The notes beneath the pieces were generated by a model. It ran no database searches. It was not told where the DNA came from and saw nothing but the letters and a program-made list of their open reading frames with translations. From a virus, in the IMG/VR virus record IMGVR_UViG_3300027714_000110, positions 1-25,589 of that record: DNA of 25,589 nucleotides; one strand, 5' to 3'. Made by a program: the position numbers and the translations under genes. Positions 3,260-25,589 of the stretch are shown in pieces. The stretch's first letter is position 1. Every line of letters begins with the position of its first letter.

Positions 3260-4288
3260 ATGCCTAAATCCAATGTAAGTGCCAATTTAGAGCACGATGA
3301 TAGTATTGATGATAAAAACTTTGATGAATTCGCAGGTGGTGATGGTCGCGAAGATTTTGACGCAAGTGCCTTAGACCGAGGGGATACGCCCGAAGAGGAA
3401 GCTGACCCGACAGATGCGGCTATTGCACATTTAGTTGAAGTAGCGGACGAAGCCGAGGCAGCCGAGGGCGAAGAAGAAGTCGAATCTGAGTTAGAGAGTG
3501 ACGAAGGTGGACTAGAAGGCGAGGAAGTCGAAGAAGAGGTGGAAGAGGAAGAAGAAGTCAAAGAAGCGGCTACTTCTAAATCTGACGACAAGGCGCACAT
3601 GGTGCCTAAGTCTCGAATGGATGAAGAGATTGCTCGAAGACGGCAACTTGAAGATCGACTCGCTAAGCTAGAAGAAAGTGCGAAGCCTGAAGTAGCGCCT
3701 GAACCTGAGTTCGACTTTGACGGTAAAGAAGCTGAATATATGGACGCAGTGCTCGATGGCGAAACAGATAAGGCCCAAAAGGTTCGCAAAGAGATCCGAA
3801 GTGCTGAACGGGATTCGATGGCTAAAGAGTTGCGTGGGGAAATCCACAACACAACGAATGTAACCAAGCAGCAGTTAGATCTGGATGTGGCTGTTTCAGA
3901 TATGATGGCCTCATACCCAGTGCTTGATTCCAACAGCGACCAAGCTGACACTGATCTTATCGCCGATGCTAATGAGCTCATGGGCATGTATGCAGATAAA
4001 GGTATGGCGCAAGCTGACGCACTGCGTAAAGCGGTGCGTATGACACTGGCATCTAGTATGCCTGAGTTGTTGCAACCCAAAGCCGTTGAGACTAAGCCTG
4101 CTGCTAAAAAGCGTGAGACTGATGTGAACGCTAAGTTGGAAGCCGCTAATAAGCAGCCTGCTAAGCTTGCAGGTGAGAGCGCAGCAACCCGTGATAATGA
4201 CGTTGTTAACATCAGCACCATGACTGACTCGGACTTCGAGAAGTTGTCCGAAGCTCAAATGCATCGTCTGCGCGGTGACTTCGGATAA
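3260..4288 (+). CDS. Capsid scaffold protein
   Basis: This is the probable scaffold that guides capsid assembly and leaves before maturation. It lies between portal and capsid genes, the standard position. The 342-residue protein is very acidic in its first third, with a run of Glu at about residues 87-102 (GEEVEEEVEEEEEVKEA), followed by a charged helical region (ARRRQLEDRLAKLEE). It ends in a small helical tail, FEKLSEAQMHRLRGDFG, as expected for the capsid-binding end of scaffolds. A GGAGG ribosome site at 3250-3254 supports the ATG at 3260. I see no protease motif and no separate prohead protease gene nearby. The role is inferred from position and composition, since scaffolds are poorly conserved in sequence. 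Confidence 0.8.
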   Translation: MPKSNVSANLEHDDSIDDKNFDEFAGGDGREDFDASALDRGDTPEEEADPTDAAIAHLVEVADEAEAAEGEEEVESELESDEGGLEGEEVEEEVEEEEEVKEAATSKSDDKAHMVPKSRMDEEIARRRQLEDRLAKLEESAKPEVAPEPEFDFDGKEAEYMDAVLDGETDKAQKVRKEIRSAERDSMAKELRGEIHNTTNVTKQQLDLDVAVSDMMASYPVLDSNSDQADTDLIADANELMGMYADKGMAQADALRKAVRMTLASSMPELLQPKAVETKPAAKKRETDVNAKLEAANKQPAKLAGESAATRDNDVVNISTMTDSDFEKLSEAQMHRLRGDFG

Positions 4289-4542
4289 TGCGCGAGGAAA
4301 TAGAAGCAGCCTATGAAATAGATTTCCCTGGGCTCTTGTTCATGGACGGTTTGGATAGCGCAATTATTGGAGTATCTCACGTCGGGGATGTTCCAGTAGT
4401 TACGTATTCTGCTGAAAAGATCCTAGAAAACCTCGTTGAGCAAGGCATGGGTATTCATGAGGCTAGAGAGTTCATGTCGTTTAATATTGAAGGGGCTTTT
4501 ATGGGGGAACACACCCCCGTAATAGTCGATGATCTATTTTAA
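4288..4542 (+). CDS. Small conserved phage protein of unknown function
   Basis: This 84-residue acidic protein starts in a TAATG overlap with the scaffold stop, so it is translationally coupled. It carries the pattern MDGLDSAIIGV, YSAEKILENLVEQGMG and FNIEGAFMGEHTPVIVDD. Small proteins of this pattern (DGxDxAIxGV ... FNxxGAxxGExTP) are, as far as I recall, common in many tailed phages, and I know of no established function. Its place in the packaging/head block says little, as such proteins are found in varied settings. A GGGGG/CCCCC hairpin (4503-4518) lies within the last codons. No motif suggests catalysis. Confidence 0.75.
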   Translation: MREEIEAAYEIDFPGLLFMDGLDSAIIGVSHVGDVPVVTYSAEKILENLVEQGMGIHEAREFMSFNIEGAFMGEHTPVIVDDLF

Positions 4543-4553
4543 AGGGGTTACAG

Positions 4554-4583
4554 TTTCCCTTACTTTATAAGCTGTGCTAATAT
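4554..4583 (+). promoter_or_regulatory. Putative extended -10 promoter for the capsid transcription unit
   Basis: TGC followed by TAATAT (4575-4583) fits an extended -10 element of a bacterial sigma-70 promoter. The -35 candidate TTTCCC at 4554-4559 is weak, with an 18-nt spacer. Transcription would begin near 4590 and give a leader of about 240 nt before the capsid start. The -10 overlaps an imperfect inverted repeat (4566-4582), which could be an operator. Sequence evidence only. Confidence 0.45.
4565..4582 (+). repeat. TTATAAGC inverted repeat, copy 1
   Basis: TATAAGC (4566-4572), TGT, then GCTAATA (4576-4582) form an inverted repeat with one mismatch and a 3-nt centre. The TTATAAGC half-site recurs at 4779 and 17217, in each case in a gene-free stretch upstream of a structural gene. 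The repeat overlaps the putative -10 element. It could be a protein-binding site or part of a phage promoter. Confidence 0.5.
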
Positions 4584-4589
4584 ATGTAC

Positions 4590-4778
4590 ACAGGTTCGTC
4601 TTGCAGTACGATAACTGCCAAAGCCTATTGAATCGAAGGCCGTACGACACACGGTAGCATTCGCCAGCTTAAAAAGGCCATGAGTTCGTCCCTCTTAAAA
4701 AGGTCGCTATTTCGTTCGGGCACGACACGTCCAACAGCATGCAGTGGTTGTCGCCCCTGCCTGATTAATGGCGACCGT
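4590..4778 (+). ncRNA. Putative structured 5' leader RNA of the capsid gene
   Basis: This non-coding stretch, between the putative start of transcription and the second TTATAAG repeat, is full of short helices. Three hairpins share an ACGA-type loop: CAGT/ACTG with loop ACGATA (4604-4617), CCGT/ACGG with loop ACGACAC (4640-4654), and GGGC/GTCC, one G-U pair, with loop ACGACAC (4718-4732). Each is preceded by a TCGT or TCGA. A fourth hairpin GTCGCC/GGCGAC (4750-4775) has a 14-nt loop. CTTAAAAAGG occurs twice (4668-4677 and 4694-4703). I do not recognise a known RNA family. It could act as a translational control element, stabilise the mRNA, or bind a protein. Confidence 0.5.
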
Positions 4779-4797
4779 TTATAAGCAGTTCTTATAA
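4779..4797 (+). repeat. TTATAAG inverted repeat, copy 2
   Basis: This is a perfect 7-bp inverted repeat, TTATAAG / CTTATAA, separated by CAGTT, about 34 nt before the capsid ATG. It is followed by an AT-rich stretch. TGATATATA at 4810-4818 resembles an extended -10, but it overlaps the ribosome site, so a promoter here would leave almost no leader. The repeat may instead be an operator or close the leader structure. Confidence 0.55.
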
Positions 4798-4830
4798 TTT
4801 ATTTTAATTTGATATATAGGTGATTTTCTC

Positions 4831-5940
4831 ATGGCATTAACTAATTTTGCCGCTCTAACTTCAGAGCAAAAGACCGTATGGTCTCGCGACTTCTGGCACG
4901 CTGCCCGTAACGCATCCTTCATTAACCAATTCGCTGGTTCTGGCTCTAACGCCATGGTTCAGCGCATTACTGACTTAACTAAAAGTGAAAAGGGCGCACG
5001 CGCTGTTTTAACTTTGCTAGCTGACTTGTCTGGCGACGGTGTGGTAGGTGACTACACTCTAGAAGGCAACGAAGAAGCTCTTTCTAGTTCTGACATCACA
5101 GTTCGTATCGACCAGATGCGTAATGCAAACCGTTTGGCTGGCCGTTTAGCCGACCAAAAGTCTATCGTAAACTTCCGCGAAGCCTCTAAAGATTCATTGG
5201 CTTACTGGATGGCTGACCGTATGGACCAGTTAGCATTTTTAACTTTGTCTGGTTTGGCATACACCAAGAAGAACAACGGTGGTGCTCGTACTGTAGCTGC
5301 AACTGGCCAGAACTTGTCTAACCTTGAGTTTTCTGCAGACGTTACTGCTCCAACCAACAAGCGTACGTTAGTTGCAAAAGCTGACGGCACTGTTGGTACT
5401 GGTAACCTTACTGCTACTGGAATCTTGGGATACAAGAACATCGTCAACCTAAAGGCTTACGCTAAAGATCACTACATGCGTGGTGTTCGTGGCGCAGGTG
5501 GTGACGAAGGTTTCCACATGTTCGTTACTCCTCAAGGCATGGCTCAGCTGAAGTTAGATGCTGACTTCCTAGCCAACGTTCGTAACGCAGGCAACCGTGG
5601 ACCAGTCAACTCTTTGTTCTCAGGTTCTTCTTCCGTAATGGTAGACGGCGTAATGATTCATGAGTTCCGTCATGTATATGACACTTCTGGTGAAGCGGCT
5701 GATGGTAAGTTCGGTGCTGGCGGTGCAATAAACGGGCAACGTGCTTTGTTCTGTGGCGCACAAGCATTGGCAATGGCTGACATTGGCGACGCTGACTGGG
5801 TTGAAGAAACTTACGACTACGGAAACCAGCACGGTATCTCAATCGGTAAGATCTTAGGCTTCCGTAAGCCAAAGTACACAAGCATGGTAACTGGTGACGC
5901 ACAAGATTTTGGTGTAATCACACTAGACACTGCCATTTAA
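4831..5940 (+). CDS. Major capsid protein, N4-gp56 family
   Basis: This is the main shell subunit. The 369-residue protein begins with a Ser/Thr-rich segment and SEQKTVWSRDFWHAARNASF, then GDYTLEGNEEALSSSDITVRIDQMRNANRLAGRLADQ. That combination is typical of the N4-gp56 (Phage_capsid_3, formerly DUF4043) capsid group with an HK97-like fold. The later segments HMFVTPQGMAQLKLDADF and ALFCGAQALAMADIGDADWVEETYDYGNQHGISIGKI also fit. AGGTGA at 4818-4823 is the ribosome site, 7 nt before the ATG. Codon choice favours GGT, CGT and AAC more than in neighbouring genes, as expected for a very highly expressed product. A promoter-like element and structured leader lie upstream and an intrinsic terminator directly follows, suggesting a transcription unit of its own. 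Confidence 0.9.
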   Translation: MALTNFAALTSEQKTVWSRDFWHAARNASFINQFAGSGSNAMVQRITDLTKSEKGARAVLTLLADLSGDGVVGDYTLEGNEEALSSSDITVRIDQMRNANRLAGRLADQKSIVNFREASKDSLAYWMADRMDQLAFLTLSGLAYTKKNNGGARTVAATGQNLSNLEFSADVTAPTNKRTLVAKADGTVGTGNLTATGILGYKNIVNLKAYAKDHYMRGVRGAGGDEGFHMFVTPQGMAQLKLDADFLANVRNAGNRGPVNSLFSGSSSVMVDGVMIHEFRHVYDTSGEAADGKFGAGGAINGQRALFCGAQALAMADIGDADWVEETYDYGNQHGISIGKILGFRKPKYTSMVTGDAQDFGVITLDTAI

Positions 5941-5956
5941 GTAATTAGGGCCTCTT

Positions 5957-5994
5957 CCCCCAGCAGTACGCTGGGGGCTTTTTGGAGTTTTTTT
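5957..5994 (+). terminator. Rho-independent terminator after the capsid gene
   Basis: A perfect 8-bp GC-rich stem, CCCCCAGC (5957-5964) with GCTGGGGG (5970-5977) and loop AGTAC, is followed by CTTTTT and, after GGAG, seven more T. It starts 17 nt after the capsid stop. The T tract is interrupted by the ribosome site of the next gene. The downstream genes must then be reached by read-through or from another promoter. Confidence 0.88.
5984..5987 (+). promoter_or_regulatory. Ribosome site GGAG inside the terminator T tract
   Basis: GGAG sits between the two T runs of the capsid terminator and 9 nt before the ATG at 5997. It decides the start of the next gene in favour of ATG 5997 over the in-frame TTG at 5982, which would lie in the T tract ahead of the GGAG. 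Only read-through transcripts can carry a complete ribosome site. Confidence 0.7.
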
Positions 5995-5996
5995 AT

Positions 5997-6368
5997 ATGT
6001 TGATTTCTGATAAGGCAATGCACGTAAGCAGTACAACCGGCCAATCGGCTTGGTTTGAAGCAGGTGTTGCGCAAGAAGTCCCACCACCTTTGGTGGACGA
6101 ATGTATTGCTATGGGAGCATATCCTGTAGGCGAGAAAAAACCAGCGCAAAAACCTGCTGCTGAAAAGGTCGAAGTAGATGAGGTCTCAGACGAGGACCGC
6201 ACTATGGAGATAGTCACTGCCATCGAGCAGTTGGTAGAGCTAGGCGACACTAAAGCCTTCTCAAAAAATACGGGTGAACCTAAAGTTCGTAGCATAGAAA
6301 AAGTTCTAGGTTACGACATCACTCCTGAGCAGCGCGATGTAGCGTGGGCTGAACTTAGCGAGGCGTAA
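5997..6368 (+). CDS. Hypothetical structural-region protein
   Basis: This is a 123-residue protein of unknown function. The start is set at ATG 5997 because GGAG lies 9 nt upstream; the in-frame TTG at 5982 lies inside the terminator. It has two segments: residues 1-47 (ending PPLVDECIAMGAYPVG), a K/P/A/E-rich linker at about 47-65, and a C-terminal domain with AFSKNTGEPKVRSIEKVLGYDITPEQRDVAWAEL. Such short two-part proteins right after the capsid gene are common in tailed phages and often join head to tail, but I have no motif to prove that here. The next gene overlaps its stop (TAATG). Confidence 0.7.
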   Translation: MLISDKAMHVSSTTGQSAWFEAGVAQEVPPPLVDECIAMGAYPVGEKKPAQKPAAEKVEVDEVSDEDRTMEIVTAIEQLVELGDTKAFSKNTGEPKVRSIEKVLGYDITPEQRDVAWAELSEA

Positions 6369-18720: not shown

Positions 18721-19572
18721 ATGTCAATTAAGTATTCTAACAATGCGGCAACTACAGTTGCTACGTCTTTTAGTAACAGTGCAACCGCTCTAGTTGTAGC
18801 TGATGCATCCGAGTTCCCTACCCTTACTGGTAGTGACGAGCTGCGCATCACACTGTCTGATGTGACAAATACTGTATTTGAGATTGTGACTTGTACAGCG
18901 ATTGCAGGAACTACTTTAACTGTCGTTCGCGCTCAAGAAAACACAACAGCAGCAGCATGGGCAATTGGCACTGATGTGTCACTGCGTATTACTGCGGCAG
19001 GTTTAGAAGCAAAAGCAGACAAGACCCAGGTTCTTACAAATGTTCCTGCTGGGGCTTTGTTTACTGACACTAACACTGTTTACAGCTTACCTACTCAGGC
19101 CTCTAACGCTAACAAGTTTTTAAAGACCGACGGAAGCAACGAGAGTTGGGCTGTGGTAGAAGCGCTGCCAAGCCAATCGGGCAATACAGGTAAGTTCTTA
19201 ACGACTGATGGAAGTGCTGCAACTTGGGCAACACAAGGAGCCAACGGCACCGCTGAACGCACAGTGTTTACTGCAACCGCAGGACAAACATCGTTTGCAG
19301 TAACTTACACATCGGGTTTTGTAGACGTGTATTTAAACGGTATAAAACTGCAGATCGCAATAGATTTTACTGGCACTTCAGGGTCAGCGGTTGTCTTAGC
19401 TGTCGGTGCGTTGGTCGGTGATATTGTGGATGTTGTTGCTTACGGTACGTTTACTTTAGCGAACCATTACACAAAAACTCAAACAGATAATTTAATTAGA
19501 TTTGAAATAGATGGGGGAGTCTCTAACTCTACTTATTTAGCAACTCAATTAGTAGACGGAGGAACAGCATAA
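18721..19572 (+). CDS. Tail fibre protein
   Basis: A 283-residue fibre protein. Residues 1-95 form a beta-rich domain (TTVATSFSNSATALVVADASEFP ... TAAGLEAKAD). Two related segments follow at about 123-145 and 149-170, both of the form L-P-[ST]-Q-x(6)-KFL-x-TDGS-x-x-x-WA. Next is FTATAGQTSFAVTYTSGFVDVYLNGIKL (about 181-210), a small domain common in marine phage fibres, and near the end YTKTQTDNLI, a tail-fibre motif. It is likely part of the shaft or base for the receptor-binding proteins downstream. The stop overlaps the next start (TAATG), whose GGAGGAA site lies inside this gene. Confidence 0.7.
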   Translation: MSIKYSNNAATTVATSFSNSATALVVADASEFPTLTGSDELRITLSDVTNTVFEIVTCTAIAGTTLTVVRAQENTTAAAWAIGTDVSLRITAAGLEAKADKTQVLTNVPAGALFTDTNTVYSLPTQASNANKFLKTDGSNESWAVVEALPSQSGNTGKFLTTDGSAATWATQGANGTAERTVFTATAGQTSFAVTYTSGFVDVYLNGIKLQIAIDFTGTSGSAVVLAVGALVGDIVDVVAYGTFTLANHYTKTQTDNLIRFEIDGGVSNSTYLATQLVDGGTA

Positions 19573-20549: not shown

Positions 20550-22481
20550 ATGACTATTGAAAGAAAAGTAGGCATGGGGATTGCTGGTCAATCCAGTGGT
20601 GATGGCCCGACTGATGTGGCAGATGTATTTAGTACATTTTTGTATACCCCTGCAACAAGTAATTCTAATGTACCAATCGTCAACGGCATTGATCTTGCTG
20701 GTGAAGGGGGTATGGTTTGGATCAAACAAAGGGACACCGATCGGTATCCCGTTATTGTAGATACGGAGCGAGGAGGGAATAAGGTCTTACATCCTCACGA
20801 AAATTATGCAGGGTACACGCAAGTTATCGTTCAGAGTTTTAATAGTAATGGGTTTACAACAGGCACATCATCATTCGTTAGTGTTGCTGACGAAGATACA
20901 GTCGCATGGACATTCCGCAAGAAGGAAAAGTTCTTTGACGTAGTGACCTATACGGGTAATGGCGCAAATCGGACAATAGCTCATAGTCTAGGTGGCGATG
21001 TGGGTATGATGTTTATTAGGCAGACAAACGCCACAAATGATTGGATTGTATATGTAAAATCGCTAGGTAACGACAAACTTATGTACCTAAATCTTACAAA
21101 CTCCATAGGTAATGACCCTACTGGTGTGATGTGGAACACAACTACGCCAACTAATGACTTATTTTCTATTGGAACACAAGGGGCAGTTAATACTAATGGA
21201 GCAACATACGTAGCCTACTTATTCGCTGACAACTCCTCTGAAGATGCAGAAGATCAGATGATCAAGTGTGGCAGCTATACGGGCAATGGAACAGTAGGGC
21301 GAACTTTAGATTTGGGTTGGGAGCCTCAGTTTATATTATTAAAACGAACAGACTCAGCAGACAATTGGTTTATATTCGACACCACAAGGGAGCAAACTAC
21401 AGGTATATCTGCATACATACGAAATTTAAGACATGAAGAAGGCAGAGGTTTTTATTATATTCCACCAAATCCAACTGGAATTACGTTTAATGCTGCAAAT
21501 GGTGGAGCTTTTAATACTAATAATGCTAAGTACATGTACATGGCAATTCGTGCGCCTATGATGGTCAAGCCAGAAGCGGCTACTGATGTGTTTAGTGTTA
21601 AATCTTACACAGGAAATGGCGCTACTCAAACATTAGATGCTGCATTCGGGCCTGTTGATATGGCTATAGTAAAAAATAAAGAATCTGGTGTTGGCATGCA
21701 ACCTGATATAACAACTAGATTAACCCATGCTGAATTATATACTGATTCCTCTACTGAGGAAGGTTCACGTAATTTTGTAACGTTTGATAGCAATAGTTTA
21801 GTACTTCCAGCACAAAATAATTCAAATACTTCTAACATACCTTTTTCGCTTTTTTCATGGAAACGGGCAAAAGGCTATATGGACTGCGTTGCTTATTCTG
21901 GTACTGGTTCTGCTAGGACACAAACACATTCGCTTGGTGTTGTTCCAGAAATGATTTGGGTAAAGAGTAGGGCTAACTCTAAGAATTGGGCAGTATATCA
22001 TCCGTCAAGTCATGCCGCTGGAAATACACTTTTTCTTAATTTAGATAATGGTGGCTCTGGTGTTGGTGGTTTTCAATCAACCGCTGTGAGTGACACCACA
22101 TTTAATGTAGACACTGCTGAAGAGACAAATAGTAGTGGTTGGACTTACGTAGCTTACCTCTTCGCAACACTGGCTGGCATATCTAAGGTCGGCAGCTACA
22201 CTGGCAACGGCTATAACCAAACTATTAACTGTGGGTTTTCAGCAGGTGCTAGGTTCATTCTAATCAAGCGTATTGGAGCTACGGGTGATTGGTACTTATG
22301 GGATTCTGCTAGAGGAATTGTTGCAGGTAACGACCCACATTTTAGTTTAAACACTGATGCAGAACAAATAACCTCAAACGATTCAATAGACCCTGCAAAC
22401 TCAGGATTTATTGTGAATCAAGTATCTGCAACTAACATCAACGTGTCTAGCGGCACTTACATCTTTTACGCAATCGCATAG
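20550..22481 (+). CDS. Receptor-binding-type tail protein, repeat copy 1 (DUF7483-like)
   Basis: A 643-residue protein of six related units, each about 100-110 residues, starting near residues 30, 132, 240, 350, 447 and 548. Each unit opens with Y-[TS]-G-[NT]-G (the first is degenerate in this copy), then a [LF]-G-x-x-P-x-x-[IM]-[IL]-x-K strand, an N-W motif, and often ends in TYVAYLFA or YIFYAIA. This looks like the repeated beta domain named DUF7483 in marine phage proteins, probably lectin-like; no catalytic motif is visible. It begins MTIERK and directly follows the preceding fibre gene. A paralogue occurs at 23496-25388 and the start of a third at 25400. The likely role is host-surface binding. 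Confidence 0.75.
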   Translation: MTIERKVGMGIAGQSSGDGPTDVADVFSTFLYTPATSNSNVPIVNGIDLAGEGGMVWIKQRDTDRYPVIVDTERGGNKVLHPHENYAGYTQVIVQSFNSNGFTTGTSSFVSVADEDTVAWTFRKKEKFFDVVTYTGNGANRTIAHSLGGDVGMMFIRQTNATNDWIVYVKSLGNDKLMYLNLTNSIGNDPTGVMWNTTTPTNDLFSIGTQGAVNTNGATYVAYLFADNSSEDAEDQMIKCGSYTGNGTVGRTLDLGWEPQFILLKRTDSADNWFIFDTTREQTTGISAYIRNLRHEEGRGFYYIPPNPTGITFNAANGGAFNTNNAKYMYMAIRAPMMVKPEAATDVFSVKSYTGNGATQTLDAAFGPVDMAIVKNKESGVGMQPDITTRLTHAELYTDSSTEEGSRNFVTFDSNSLVLPAQNNSNTSNIPFSLFSWKRAKGYMDCVAYSGTGSARTQTHSLGVVPEMIWVKSRANSKNWAVYHPSSHAAGNTLFLNLDNGGSGVGGFQSTAVSDTTFNVDTAEETNSSGWTYVAYLFATLAGISKVGSYTGNGYNQTINCGFSAGARFILIKRIGATGDWYLWDSARGIVAGNDPHFSLNTDAEQITSNDSIDPANSGFIVNQVSATNINVSSGTYIFYAIA

Positions 22482-23495: not shown

Positions 23496-25388
23496 ATGAC
23501 TATCGAAAGAAAGTTGTTAGGTACTAGCCCCAGTGGTGGTGGTGCGACTGATGTTGCAGATGTGTTTAGTACGTATTTGTGGGCGGGTAATGGTGGTAGT
23601 CAGACTATTACTAACGGCATAGACCTTGCGGGTGAAGGGGGTATGGTTTGGATAAAAAACAGAACTAGCTCCAGTACCCATTCTGTACATGATACTGAGA
23701 GAGGTGTTCATAACGCCATACGGCCCGACACTACTCATGCATCAGGAAGCCAAGACCCATATGGCGTGAGTGCGTTTAACTCAAATGGGTTTTCTTACGG
23801 TAGTGGTGGACACAACAATAACCAAACTGGGCAAGACTACGTAAGCTGGACATTCCGTAAGAAGAAAAAGTTCTTTGATGTTGTAACCTATTCTGGAAAT
23901 GGAGTTACAGGTCGTCAGATAGCACATAATCTTGGTGGGCCTGTGGGCATGATTCTTATCAGATCTACTAATACTAGTAACGATTGGCAAGTGTGGCATA
24001 CAACTACTGGAGCAGCAGGTGCTATGCAATTAAACACAACTGCTGCTGTAAACAATAGTGTATATTGGTGGAACAATACCAATCCTACCAGCACCCACTT
24101 TACATTAGCCGCACGAAACCAATCAAATAATAGTGATGCAGTATACGTGGCCTACCTATTCGCTGACAACTCCTCAGAAGATGCAGACGATCAGATGATC
24201 AAGTGTGGTGGCTATACGGGCAACGCTTCCACACTACAAGATATAAATCTCGGATGGGAGCCGCAGTTTCTAATAGTTAAAGATTCCTCTGCTAGTGGCG
24301 GCTGGTATATGTGGGACAGTATGCGAGGTTGGTTAGGTGGCGCAAATAATGGTGACGGACACCCTTTATATACAAACCAAGCTAGTGCTGAATTTAATAA
24401 TGATGATGTAGGCTTATTATCAAATGGTTTTCAAGTAGCAGATGCTCTTAACACTAACAGTAATTCATACATCTACATGGCAATACGTGCCCCAATGATG
24501 GTTGAGCCAGAAGCGGCTACTGATGTGTTTTCTCTGACCAACGCCACTGGGGCTGTTATACACAATGTTGGATTAGTGCCAGATATGGCAATCTGGACAA
24601 ACACAGCGTCATCAGGAAACAACCGACAGATAGGTAGCAGATTAATTGGTGATTCATATTTAAGAACTAATACTAGTGCTGCTGCATCTAATGCTGGTCA
24701 GGGATGGGATGAGAAAACTGGATATTGGCAGAACCCTAATCATGCTTCAAATATAAATCTTTTGTGGAAACGGGCAAAAGGCTTCTTTGATGTGGTTGCT
24801 TATTCTGGTACTGGTTCTGCAAGAACTATACCTCACTCTCTTGGTGTAGCTCCAGAGATGATATGGGCTAAAAAGCGAAATAATTCTAGGGATTGGGGTA
24901 CAGGTTTTGCTTCGCAAGGATGGACTAAAAGAGGGCCAGCTTTAGACCAAAATGAGACGTCCTATGTTACTAGCGTTTTATGGAATAACACAGCCCCAAC
25001 AGATAGTGTTTTCTCTGTGAGTGGTTTAACACATATAAATGGTTCAGGCGACACTTACATAGCCTACCTCTTCGCCACACTAGCTGGCATATCTAAGGTC
25101 GGCAGCTACACTGGCAACGGCTCTAGCCAGACGATTAACTGTGGGTTTTCAGCAGGGGCAAGATTTGTCTTAATCAAGCGCACTAACGCTACTGGCTCTT
25201 GGATGGTCTTTGATACAGCAAGGGGTATTGTCGCTGGTAATGACCCTTATTTTTACTTGGATTCTTCTTCTGCTCACATTACGGACGAAGATGCTGTTGA
25301 CCCTCATAGTTCAGGTTTTATTATAAATCAAACCAATGGAGATCAGAACGTGTCTGGCTCAACTTACATCTTTTACGCAATCGCATAG
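23496..25388 (+). CDS. Receptor-binding-type tail protein, repeat copy 2 (DUF7483-like)
   Basis: This 630-residue paralogue of the 20550-22481 protein has the same six-unit build. Unit openings include WAGNGGSQTITNGIDLAGEGGMVWIK, VVTYSGNGVTGRQIAHNLGG, CGGYTGNASTLQDINLGWEP, VVAYSGTGSARTIPHSLGV and VGSYTGNGSSQTINCGF. The fourth unit is the most divergent: DVFSLTNATGAVIHNVGLVPDMAIW lacks the YTGNG motif. Unit interiors differ much from copy 1, while junctions are identical in blocks of 19-40 nt. The gene starts right after the fibre gene at 22740-23492 (stop TAG, GAGT, ATG not far from GGGG) and ends with the shared 32-nt block. Likely role: alternative or additional host-surface binding. Confidence 0.75.
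   Translation: MTIERKLLGTSPSGGGATDVADVFSTYLWAGNGGSQTITNGIDLAGEGGMVWIKNRTSSSTHSVHDTERGVHNAIRPDTTHASGSQDPYGVSAFNSNGFSYGSGGHNNNQTGQDYVSWTFRKKKKFFDVVTYSGNGVTGRQIAHNLGGPVGMILIRSTNTSNDWQVWHTTTGAAGAMQLNTTAAVNNSVYWWNNTNPTSTHFTLAARNQSNNSDAVYVAYLFADNSSEDADDQMIKCGGYTGNASTLQDINLGWEPQFLIVKDSSASGGWYMWDSMRGWLGGANNGDGHPLYTNQASAEFNNDDVGLLSNGFQVADALNTNSNSYIYMAIRAPMMVEPEAATDVFSLTNATGAVIHNVGLVPDMAIWTNTASSGNNRQIGSRLIGDSYLRTNTSAAASNAGQGWDEKTGYWQNPNHASNINLLWKRAKGFFDVVAYSGTGSARTIPHSLGVAPEMIWAKKRNNSRDWGTGFASQGWTKRGPALDQNETSYVTSVLWNNTAPTDSVFSVSGLTHINGSGDTYIAYLFATLAGISKVGSYTGNGSSQTINCGFSAGARFVLIKRTNATGSWMVFDTARGIVAGNDPYFYLDSSSAHITDEDAVDPHSSGFIINQTNGDQNVSGSTYIFYAIA
25083..25122 (+). repeat. 40-nt identical block shared by the two receptor-binding genes
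   Basis: Identical to 22173-22212 in copy 1. It encodes the junction into the last unit (AGISKVGSYTGNG). Other identical blocks of the pair are 20538-20557 with 23484-23503, 21252-21271 with 24189-24208, 21569-21593 with 24506-24530, 21858-21876 with 24765-24783, and 22455-22486 with 25362-25393. Confidence 0.85.
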
Positions 25389-25399
25389 GGAGGCATATA

Positions 25400-25589
25400 A
25401 TGACTATCGAAAGAAAGTTATTAAGTACCAGCCCTAGTGGTGGTGCGACTGATGTTGCAGATGTGTTTAGTACATTTTTGTATACTGGTAATGGCGGCAC
25501 TAATGTTATTAATAATGGAATAGACCTTGCTGGTGAAGGCGGTATGGTCTGGATTAAATGTAGAAATGTTACCAATAACCATTACATTG
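25400..25589 (+). CDS. Receptor-binding-type tail protein, repeat copy 3 (3' end beyond window)
   Basis: An open frame of 63 codons from ATG 25400 to the window end. It begins MTIERKLLSTSPSGGATDVADVFSTFLYTGNG and continues INNGIDLAGEGGMVWIK, clearly the same family as the two upstream proteins and closest to copy 2 at its start. GGGAGG at 25388-25393 is the ribosome site. Unlike the first two copies it has no separate fibre gene before it; it follows copy 2 directly. The remainder cannot be judged. Confidence 0.8.
   Translation, partial: MTIERKLLSTSPSGGATDVADVFSTFLYTGNGGTNVINNGIDLAGEGGMVWIKCRNVTNNHYI

Follow-up and report, generated by a model that had tools for sequence, protein, structure and literature searches.

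The locus raises the question of whether the DNA in front of a phage major capsid protein (MCP) gene encodes a conserved folded RNA and, if so, what such an RNA would do for the capsid message. In the window, by which we mean the whole 25,589-nucleotide stretch of viral DNA analysed (IMG/VR record IMGVR_UViG_3300027714_000110), 288 nt separate an 84-aa ORF (end 4542) from the MCP gene (4831–5940, + strand; PF13252, phrog_334 major head protein). A sequence-only reading had described this gap as a structured leader of simple hairpins with ACGA loops, and each element was located where it had been placed: the loop ACGATA (4608–4613) inside a GCAGT/ACTGC stem (4603–4607/4614–4618), ACGACAC (4644–4650) inside CCGT/ACGG (4640–4643/4651–4654), a second ACGACAC (4722–4728) inside GGGC/GTCC (4718–4721/4729–4732, with one G-U), a fourth stem GTCGCC/GGCGAC (4750–4755/4770–4775) and two copies of CTTAAAAAGG. 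The 84-aa ORF itself (4288–4542; phrog_13182) lies between a scaffold-like gene and the leader, and many relatives seem to lack it or to carry other ORFs.

Folding of the window leader as a single sequence gave an MFE of −74.3 kcal/mol that was not beyond chance (z = −1.1, 29 of 200 shuffles being as good), and single-sequence folding was rejected as proof on account of this z value and of its blindness to pseudoknots. Searches of Rfam 15 at gathering thresholds, made with the window and 13 loci from several clades, returned 0 matches, and searches at E ≤10 and E ≤1 returned only chance-level, sub-threshold matches, in agreement with the earlier statement that no described RNA family matches. 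Since the window alone offered neither a significant fold nor an Rfam match, the claim needed testing on relatives.

The MCP protein as query retrieved 80 loci from viral contigs, the upstream regions of which carry the leader too, and a separate scan with a 15-base RNA motif from clade B (another clade, its MCP ~65% identical to that of the window) yielded 120 stretches. An alignment of 59 non-redundant clade B leaders (A1) was used for a covariance model (R1) that included zero window-clade sequences. R1 matched the window leader at 4592–4745 on the + strand with E = 5.4e-6 in 514 kb, and at E ≤0.005 it matched 74 of the 75 MCP loci searched (the window included, and seven of the loci being in the model), the exception being L080. 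Loci of clade C (L036 type) and of the L029 type, neither of which was in the model, were matched at E ~1e-16 to 1e-22 and ~1e-5 to 5e-3, respectively. Models of the window clade (R2) and of clade C (R3) cross-detected other clades, and R1 matched 24 of 48 more distant MCP loci.

Cultured relatives found by DNA similarity showed no similar leader, and R1, R2 and R3 gave no significant match to the leaders of KPP25, CRPAP1904, AP1, phiA008, BcepMigl, PEp14 and KLEP18-1, even though the KPP25 MCP is 55% identical. As the leaders of KPP25, AP1 and phiA008 were unmatched by all three models, a bench system must begin from synthetic leaders. In Burkholderia phage BcepMigl (L206:2163–2357) a CsrA-like regulator gene is situated just 5' of MCP and no such RNA was found there; this gene is a hint of RNA-level control of capsid mRNA in this MCP group. 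The 81 pattern matches obtained in host genomes were discarded as essentially all chance, and the lone strong hit among them (L250) seems to come from a phage contig that had been assigned to a MAG, its length, position and score being equal to those of viral contig L123.

Comparison of the clade B leaders resolved six pseudoknots in a row, whose places correspond to six in the window (PKa–PKf). PK1 ([U/A]CGU - S2 - ACGAUA - S2'), PK5 (UCGU-n-CUCC-ACGAUAC-GGAG) and PK6 (GGA-n-AGCCG-CUCC-n-CGGCU) take a compact form in which an upstream strand pairs into a hairpin loop. PK2 (CGGC-C-CGU-A-GCCG-UAAAAA-ACG), PK3 (CGCC-U-GCA-n-GGCG-UUAAACC-UGC) and PK4 (CGAGG-U-CGC-A-CCUCG-UUAAUAA-GCG) are classical H-type pseudoknots with a one-base first loop and an A-rich crossing loop (76%, 54% and 55% A; 6, 7 and 7–8 nt long, respectively). 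Each leader contains the UCGU/ACGAUA module two or three times, the letters being kept and the stems varying, so that the earlier remark on loops staying alike while stems differ was borne out among relatives. The simple hairpins, by contrast, require revision: their stems covary and are retained, whereas an upstream UCG(U) is the partner of each ACGA loop and the remaining stems too belong to pseudoknots, of which there are six. Three ACGA loops were seen at first because the second unit of the window is of the UCG/ACGA type.

Three other interpretations of these elements were abandoned. The idea that the clade B loop CUCC acts as an anti-Shine-Dalgarno (anti-SD) sequence by pairing with GGAG was dropped, as upstream GGA is available to the loop as a partner (GGA:UCC, GGG:CCC), and it was further weakened by the pattern used to fetch clade B, which fixed those CUCC/GGAG letters. 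A long-range pairing of the PK1 CGU with a late ACG, proposed by RNAalifold, was disfavoured since in sequences whose CGU differs the local pairing persists (UCGC:GCGA, UCGG:CCGA). An RNA anti-CRISPR, that is, a solitary CRISPR-repeat mimic, had been raised by the combination of a hairpin and UUAAA repeats, and these are explained by the covarying pseudoknot strands.

Unit number was also found to vary. A clean internal loss of part of PK3–PK4 in one leader (L038:2828–2969) suggests that units can be deleted, and in four distant loci on the KPP25 side (L431, L432, L434 and L442) only a few units, of the UCG...ACGACA and GGAG-UUUCGA-CCUCC-UAAAAAGUCG types, are kept ~130 nt before MCP.

Covariation among homologues, the check on which the earlier claim depended, was strong. 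In A1, 18 of 44 pairs changed on both sides in comparison to 11.5 in shuffles, with a covariation score of 0.257 (0.098 shuffled; ≤0.050 with partners slid); the pseudoknot helices PK1–PK4 alone scored 0.113 versus 0.079 shuffled. In the clade C alignment (A3, 27 sequences), 27 of 46 pairs changed on both sides versus 14.2 in shuffles, with a score of 0.329 (0.161 shuffled; ≤0.078 slid), and the pseudoknot helices alone reached 0.233 (0.109 shuffled; ≤0.070 slid). Variants of the clade C PK3 S2 helix included GUCA:UGGC, ACUA:UAGU, GGUA:UACC, CGCA:UGCG and GUUA:UAAC, and those of PK4 S2 included CGU:ACG, CGC:GCG and CAU:AUG. Because shuffles ignore kinship, events were also counted by parsimony on independent MCP protein trees, which for nested helices gave 103 double changes in clade B and 44 in clade C (147 together) and for pseudoknot helices 16 and 25, respectively (41 together). 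The fourth pair of PK1 S1 was U-A in 118, C-G in 10, G-C in 10 and U-G in three of 146 distinct leaders with five failures, hence 141 paired in comparison to 114.6 expected. All 605 cells of the window-clade alignment (A2, 12 sequences) were paired (100%), and seven pairs changed on both sides, including those of an extra enclosing stem, P0.

These values bear on a simpler account in which the nested stems are real and the pseudoknot pairings coincidental. It is true that several pseudoknot helices have only 3 bp and do not vary, that 21 of the 59 clade B sequences do not form the third pair of PK2 S2, and that the window clade shows no change in the loop-pairing strands, for which reason the window's own pseudoknots rest partly on homologues. 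Nevertheless, the clade C score for pseudoknot helices alone, the 41 double changes within them and the fourth pair of PK1 all argue against coincidence, and we consider this account very improbable.

The three alignments together held 124 G-U cells and 35 A-C cells, an excess indicating that the folding strand is + strand RNA. An element acting as DNA, such as an origin, packaging site or recombination site with a folding single strand, might be suspected from the short repeats and the palindromic promoter region adjoining the leader. This strand-specific tolerance of G-U, and a place and strand fixed before MCP only, make it the least probable of the explanations considered. Judged from the R1 match, the R2 model and the A2 structure, window 4590–4776 (+ strand) is a cis-placed 5' leader of the MCP mRNA with a conserved fold of six tandem pseudoknots, as had been claimed for a conserved structured RNA leading the capsid gene; the clade-B-only model matches it and its helices covary in all three alignments.

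We infer transcription of the leader region from the strand-specific G-U pairs and from a promoter-like sequence. An extended −10-like element, TGC-TAATAT (4575–4583, + strand), predicts a transcript start at ~4590, just 5' of the RNA, whose P0 stem starts at 4592. Sigma70-like boxes were read by eye at the equivalent place in relatives (for example TTGCAT-N17-TAATAT in L073), while a promoter consensus scan of the window called no site at TGC-TAATAT, the −35 box being poor. Automatic promoter placement anchored on wrong sites, and promoter claims therefore depend on reading of the sequences. In several clade B loci (L103, L096, L116 and others) the −10 is contained within a palindrome such as ATATTAG-CTGT-ACTAATAT, ~10–35 nt before the RNA, and a similar ATTAGTGGCACTAAT recurs between the RNA and the SD in some clade B loci; palindrome and recurrence together are a possible operator for a regulator.

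All parts of the window leader lie on the + strand. P0 (4592–4596:4622–4626; whole 4592–4626) encloses PKa and shows double changes between C-G and U-A in both directions. PKa pairs S1 4597–4599:4608–4610 (UCGU:ACGA when 4596/4611 is counted) and S2 4603–4607:4614–4618, the latter with a G-C to A-U change. PKb (4633–4654) combines S1 UCG:CGA (4633–4635:4645–4647), invariant in the window clade, with S2 CCGU:ACGG (4640–4643:4651–4654), all four pairs of which changed on both sides there. PKc (4656–4678; S1 AGC:GCU, 4656–4658:4667–4669; S2 GCC:GGC, 4663–4665:4676–4678; crossing loop UAAAAA) is invariant in the window clade, and in its counterpart, PK3 S2, double changes number 12 (clade B) and 13 (clade C). 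PKd (4682–4706; S1 GAG:CUC, 4682–4684:4692–4694; S2 CGUCC:GGUCG, 4687–4691:4702–4706, with one U.U; crossing loop UUAAAAA) is likewise invariant there, and the S2 of its counterpart PK4 covaries through the three variants given above. Each copy of CTTAAAAAGG is made up of an A-rich crossing loop and the beginning of S2', one copy in PKc and the other in the adjacent PKd.

PKe (4712–4732) joins S1 UCGU:ACGA (4712–4715:4722–4725) to S2 GGGC:GUCC (4718–4721:4729–4732), which takes G-U, G-C and A-U forms in the window clade and has numerous double changes in clade B. The partner of the PK5 CGU in relatives may be the loop ACGA or the following ACGG, neither of which varies. PKf (4741–4775) is formed by S1 GCAG:CUGC (4741–4744:4757–4760) and S2 GUCGCC:GGCGAC (4750–4755:4770–4775); its pairs are present and invariant in the window clade, and its counterpart PK6 alternates between GGA:UCC and GGG:CCC in relatives. 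An A/U-rich hairpin, UUAUAAG-CAGUU-CUUAUAA (4779–4797), is located between PKf and the ribosome-binding site, and a hairpin of different sequence was seen by eye at its place in relatives. An SD-like AGGTG (4818–4822) stands 8 nt 5' of the MCP start codon, ~42 nt beyond the structured leader, and an SD-like motif was present in 83 of 83 non-redundant leaders.

Linkage to the capsid gene was close to uniform. Among the first 100 motif-found loci there were 92 RNA matches, 86 of which had MCP on the same strand 45–67 nt downstream; in the remaining six the sequence ends before the MCP place, so that 86 of 86 testable loci carry MCP. Eighteen long records (up to 63.7 kb) were searched; 17 contained exactly one RNA copy and the other, the distant L377, none. 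On this evidence the RNA appears specific to the MCP message, no other message having been found with it. A separate trans-acting small RNA lying before MCP by happenstance would account for a promoter-like sequence of its own and for the dense structure. Its invariable place 45–67 nt before MCP and its absence elsewhere in the records searched speak against this, as does the lack of a conserved attenuator or terminator within the leader or between leader and MCP (13 of 86 with weak matches, mostly at other sites), and we give it very little credence.

A terminator does follow the capsid gene. In the window, a strong intrinsic terminator, CCCCCAGC-AGTAC-GCTGGGGG-CTTTTT (5957–5983, + strand), begins 16 nt after the MCP stop, and terminators whose stems reach 7 bp or more follow MCP in 49 of 86 non-redundant relatives in comparison to 0–2 in shuffles. 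The SD (GGAG) and ATG of the next gene lie directly 3' of it with no room for a promoter (5941–5999), and the downstream genes therefore probably depend on read-through. This apparent requirement, together with structured RNA right 3' of a promoter-like sequence, is what favours processive antitermination, in which the nascent leader would bind RNA polymerase like HK022 putRNA and carry it past the post-MCP terminator into the late genes. However, an HK022 putRNA consists of two stem-loops in ~70 nt, and no pseudoknot has been described for it; the leader is restricted to MCP, and the terminator looks made for use. We consider antitermination unlikely. Elsewhere in the window, three tandem paralogous DUF7483/tail-fibre-like genes (20550–22481, 23496–25388 and 25400–25589; the two full ones 48% identical, the N-terminus of the third 64–73%) alternate with repeat-rich genes at 19572 (Mtd_N) and 22740 that are 60–69% alike, an amplified receptor-binding module.

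The leader probably guards or tunes the phage's most heavily made message, and the reading we favour, with a probability of roughly 40%, is that it serves as a 5' structural shield raising the lifetime and output of capsid mRNA. The leader would head a mainly single-gene capsid mRNA, with the pseudoknot string beginning a few bases from the expected transcript start, keeping enzymes of the RppH/RNase E or RNase J type away from the 5' end and leaving no long single-stranded run in the untranslated leader. The ribosome-binding site would sit outside the string in an A/U-rich stretch; the capsid mRNA would outlive its neighbours and give more protein, and the terminator after MCP would set a lower level for downstream genes. 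A requirement of RNase E and RppH for single-stranded 5' termini explains stabilisation by 5' structure (PMC3997798). Structure from the expected first bases, its end well before the SD and an abundant virion protein fit a role in stability and output. Against these points, predicted SD accessibility in local folds was only moderate (mean unpaired 0.45), and since one 5' hairpin is enough for mRNA stabilisation in E. coli, a shield alone would hardly seem to need six pseudoknots whose ACGA/CGU letters are invariant.

An alternative is a control element in which a protein of the host or the phage, perhaps even the capsid protein, would dock at the repeated modules for feedback or timed translation in the manner of T4 gene 32, where one pseudoknot 67 nt 5' of the start nucleates autorepression across a U/A-rich stretch (PMC3014915). 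Conservation of the two or three UCGU/ACGAUA modules despite changing stems, and a pseudoknot array followed by an A/U-rich stretch with the SD, are in keeping with this. The conserved letters may, however, simply serve the pseudoknot fold, no binding protein is known for the leader and MCPs of this kind are not known to bind RNA; we consider docking possible but less probable than the shield. More speculatively, the leader could exemplify a new class of modular phage regulatory RNA. Such a pseudoknot array, variable in length, would offer capsid protein, another late protein or RNA polymerase a specific place to bind and would tie the making of capsid to assembly in a dsDNA phage; this we regard as conceivable but doubtful.

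T4 gene 32 is essentially the single textbook example of phage mRNA controlled by a pseudoknot, and a 2010 review considered it perhaps the sole viral pseudoknot in translational autoregulation (PMC3014915). Here the capsid message of a large group of uncultured tailed phages from the environment has retained about six consecutive pseudoknots through deep divergence. The leader offers a small and testable model for studying how capsid dosage is set in DNA phages, and the leaders together supply RNA structural work with a natural collection of minimal pseudoknots. They are also a candidate new Rfam family, with the literature compared being open-licence papers and an earlier description elsewhere being possible.

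Several H-type pseudoknots in a row occur in the 3' UTRs of plant RNA viruses, as in the upstream pseudoknot domain of tobamoviruses. The leader is alike in its stacked units, whereas theirs are at the 3' end of RNA virus genomes, and no kinship is implied. The STAXI motif (Weinberg et al. 2010; PMC2864571) is likewise a tandem pseudoknot unit, in two to three copies near genes of phage or mobile-element type. STAXI units, however, lie near Ssb, topoisomerase, antirestriction and integrase genes and often have UUCG tetraloops, while the leader has two unit types and six units at a fixed site before MCP (86 of 86), and the STAXI model did not match the leader RNAs at gathering or lax Rfam thresholds. 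HK022 putRNA is also a cis-acting structured phage RNA near a transcript start, but one of ~70 nt and two stem-loops in early operons that binds RNA polymerase (PMC9378689), in comparison to ~187 nt and six pseudoknots. The T4/RB69 gene 32 leaders share a 5' pseudoknot upstream of an A/U-rich ribosome-binding region (PMC3014915, PMC535899) and differ in having one pseudoknot, a gene for a ssDNA-binding protein and proven autorepression, where the present leader has six, a capsid gene and no known ligand. Stabilising 5' stem-loops such as those of E. coli papA and ompA (via PMC3997798) are single and not a conserved multi-pseudoknot family, but structure near the 5' end, as predicted for the capsid mRNA, is their feature too and the working principle of the proposed shield.
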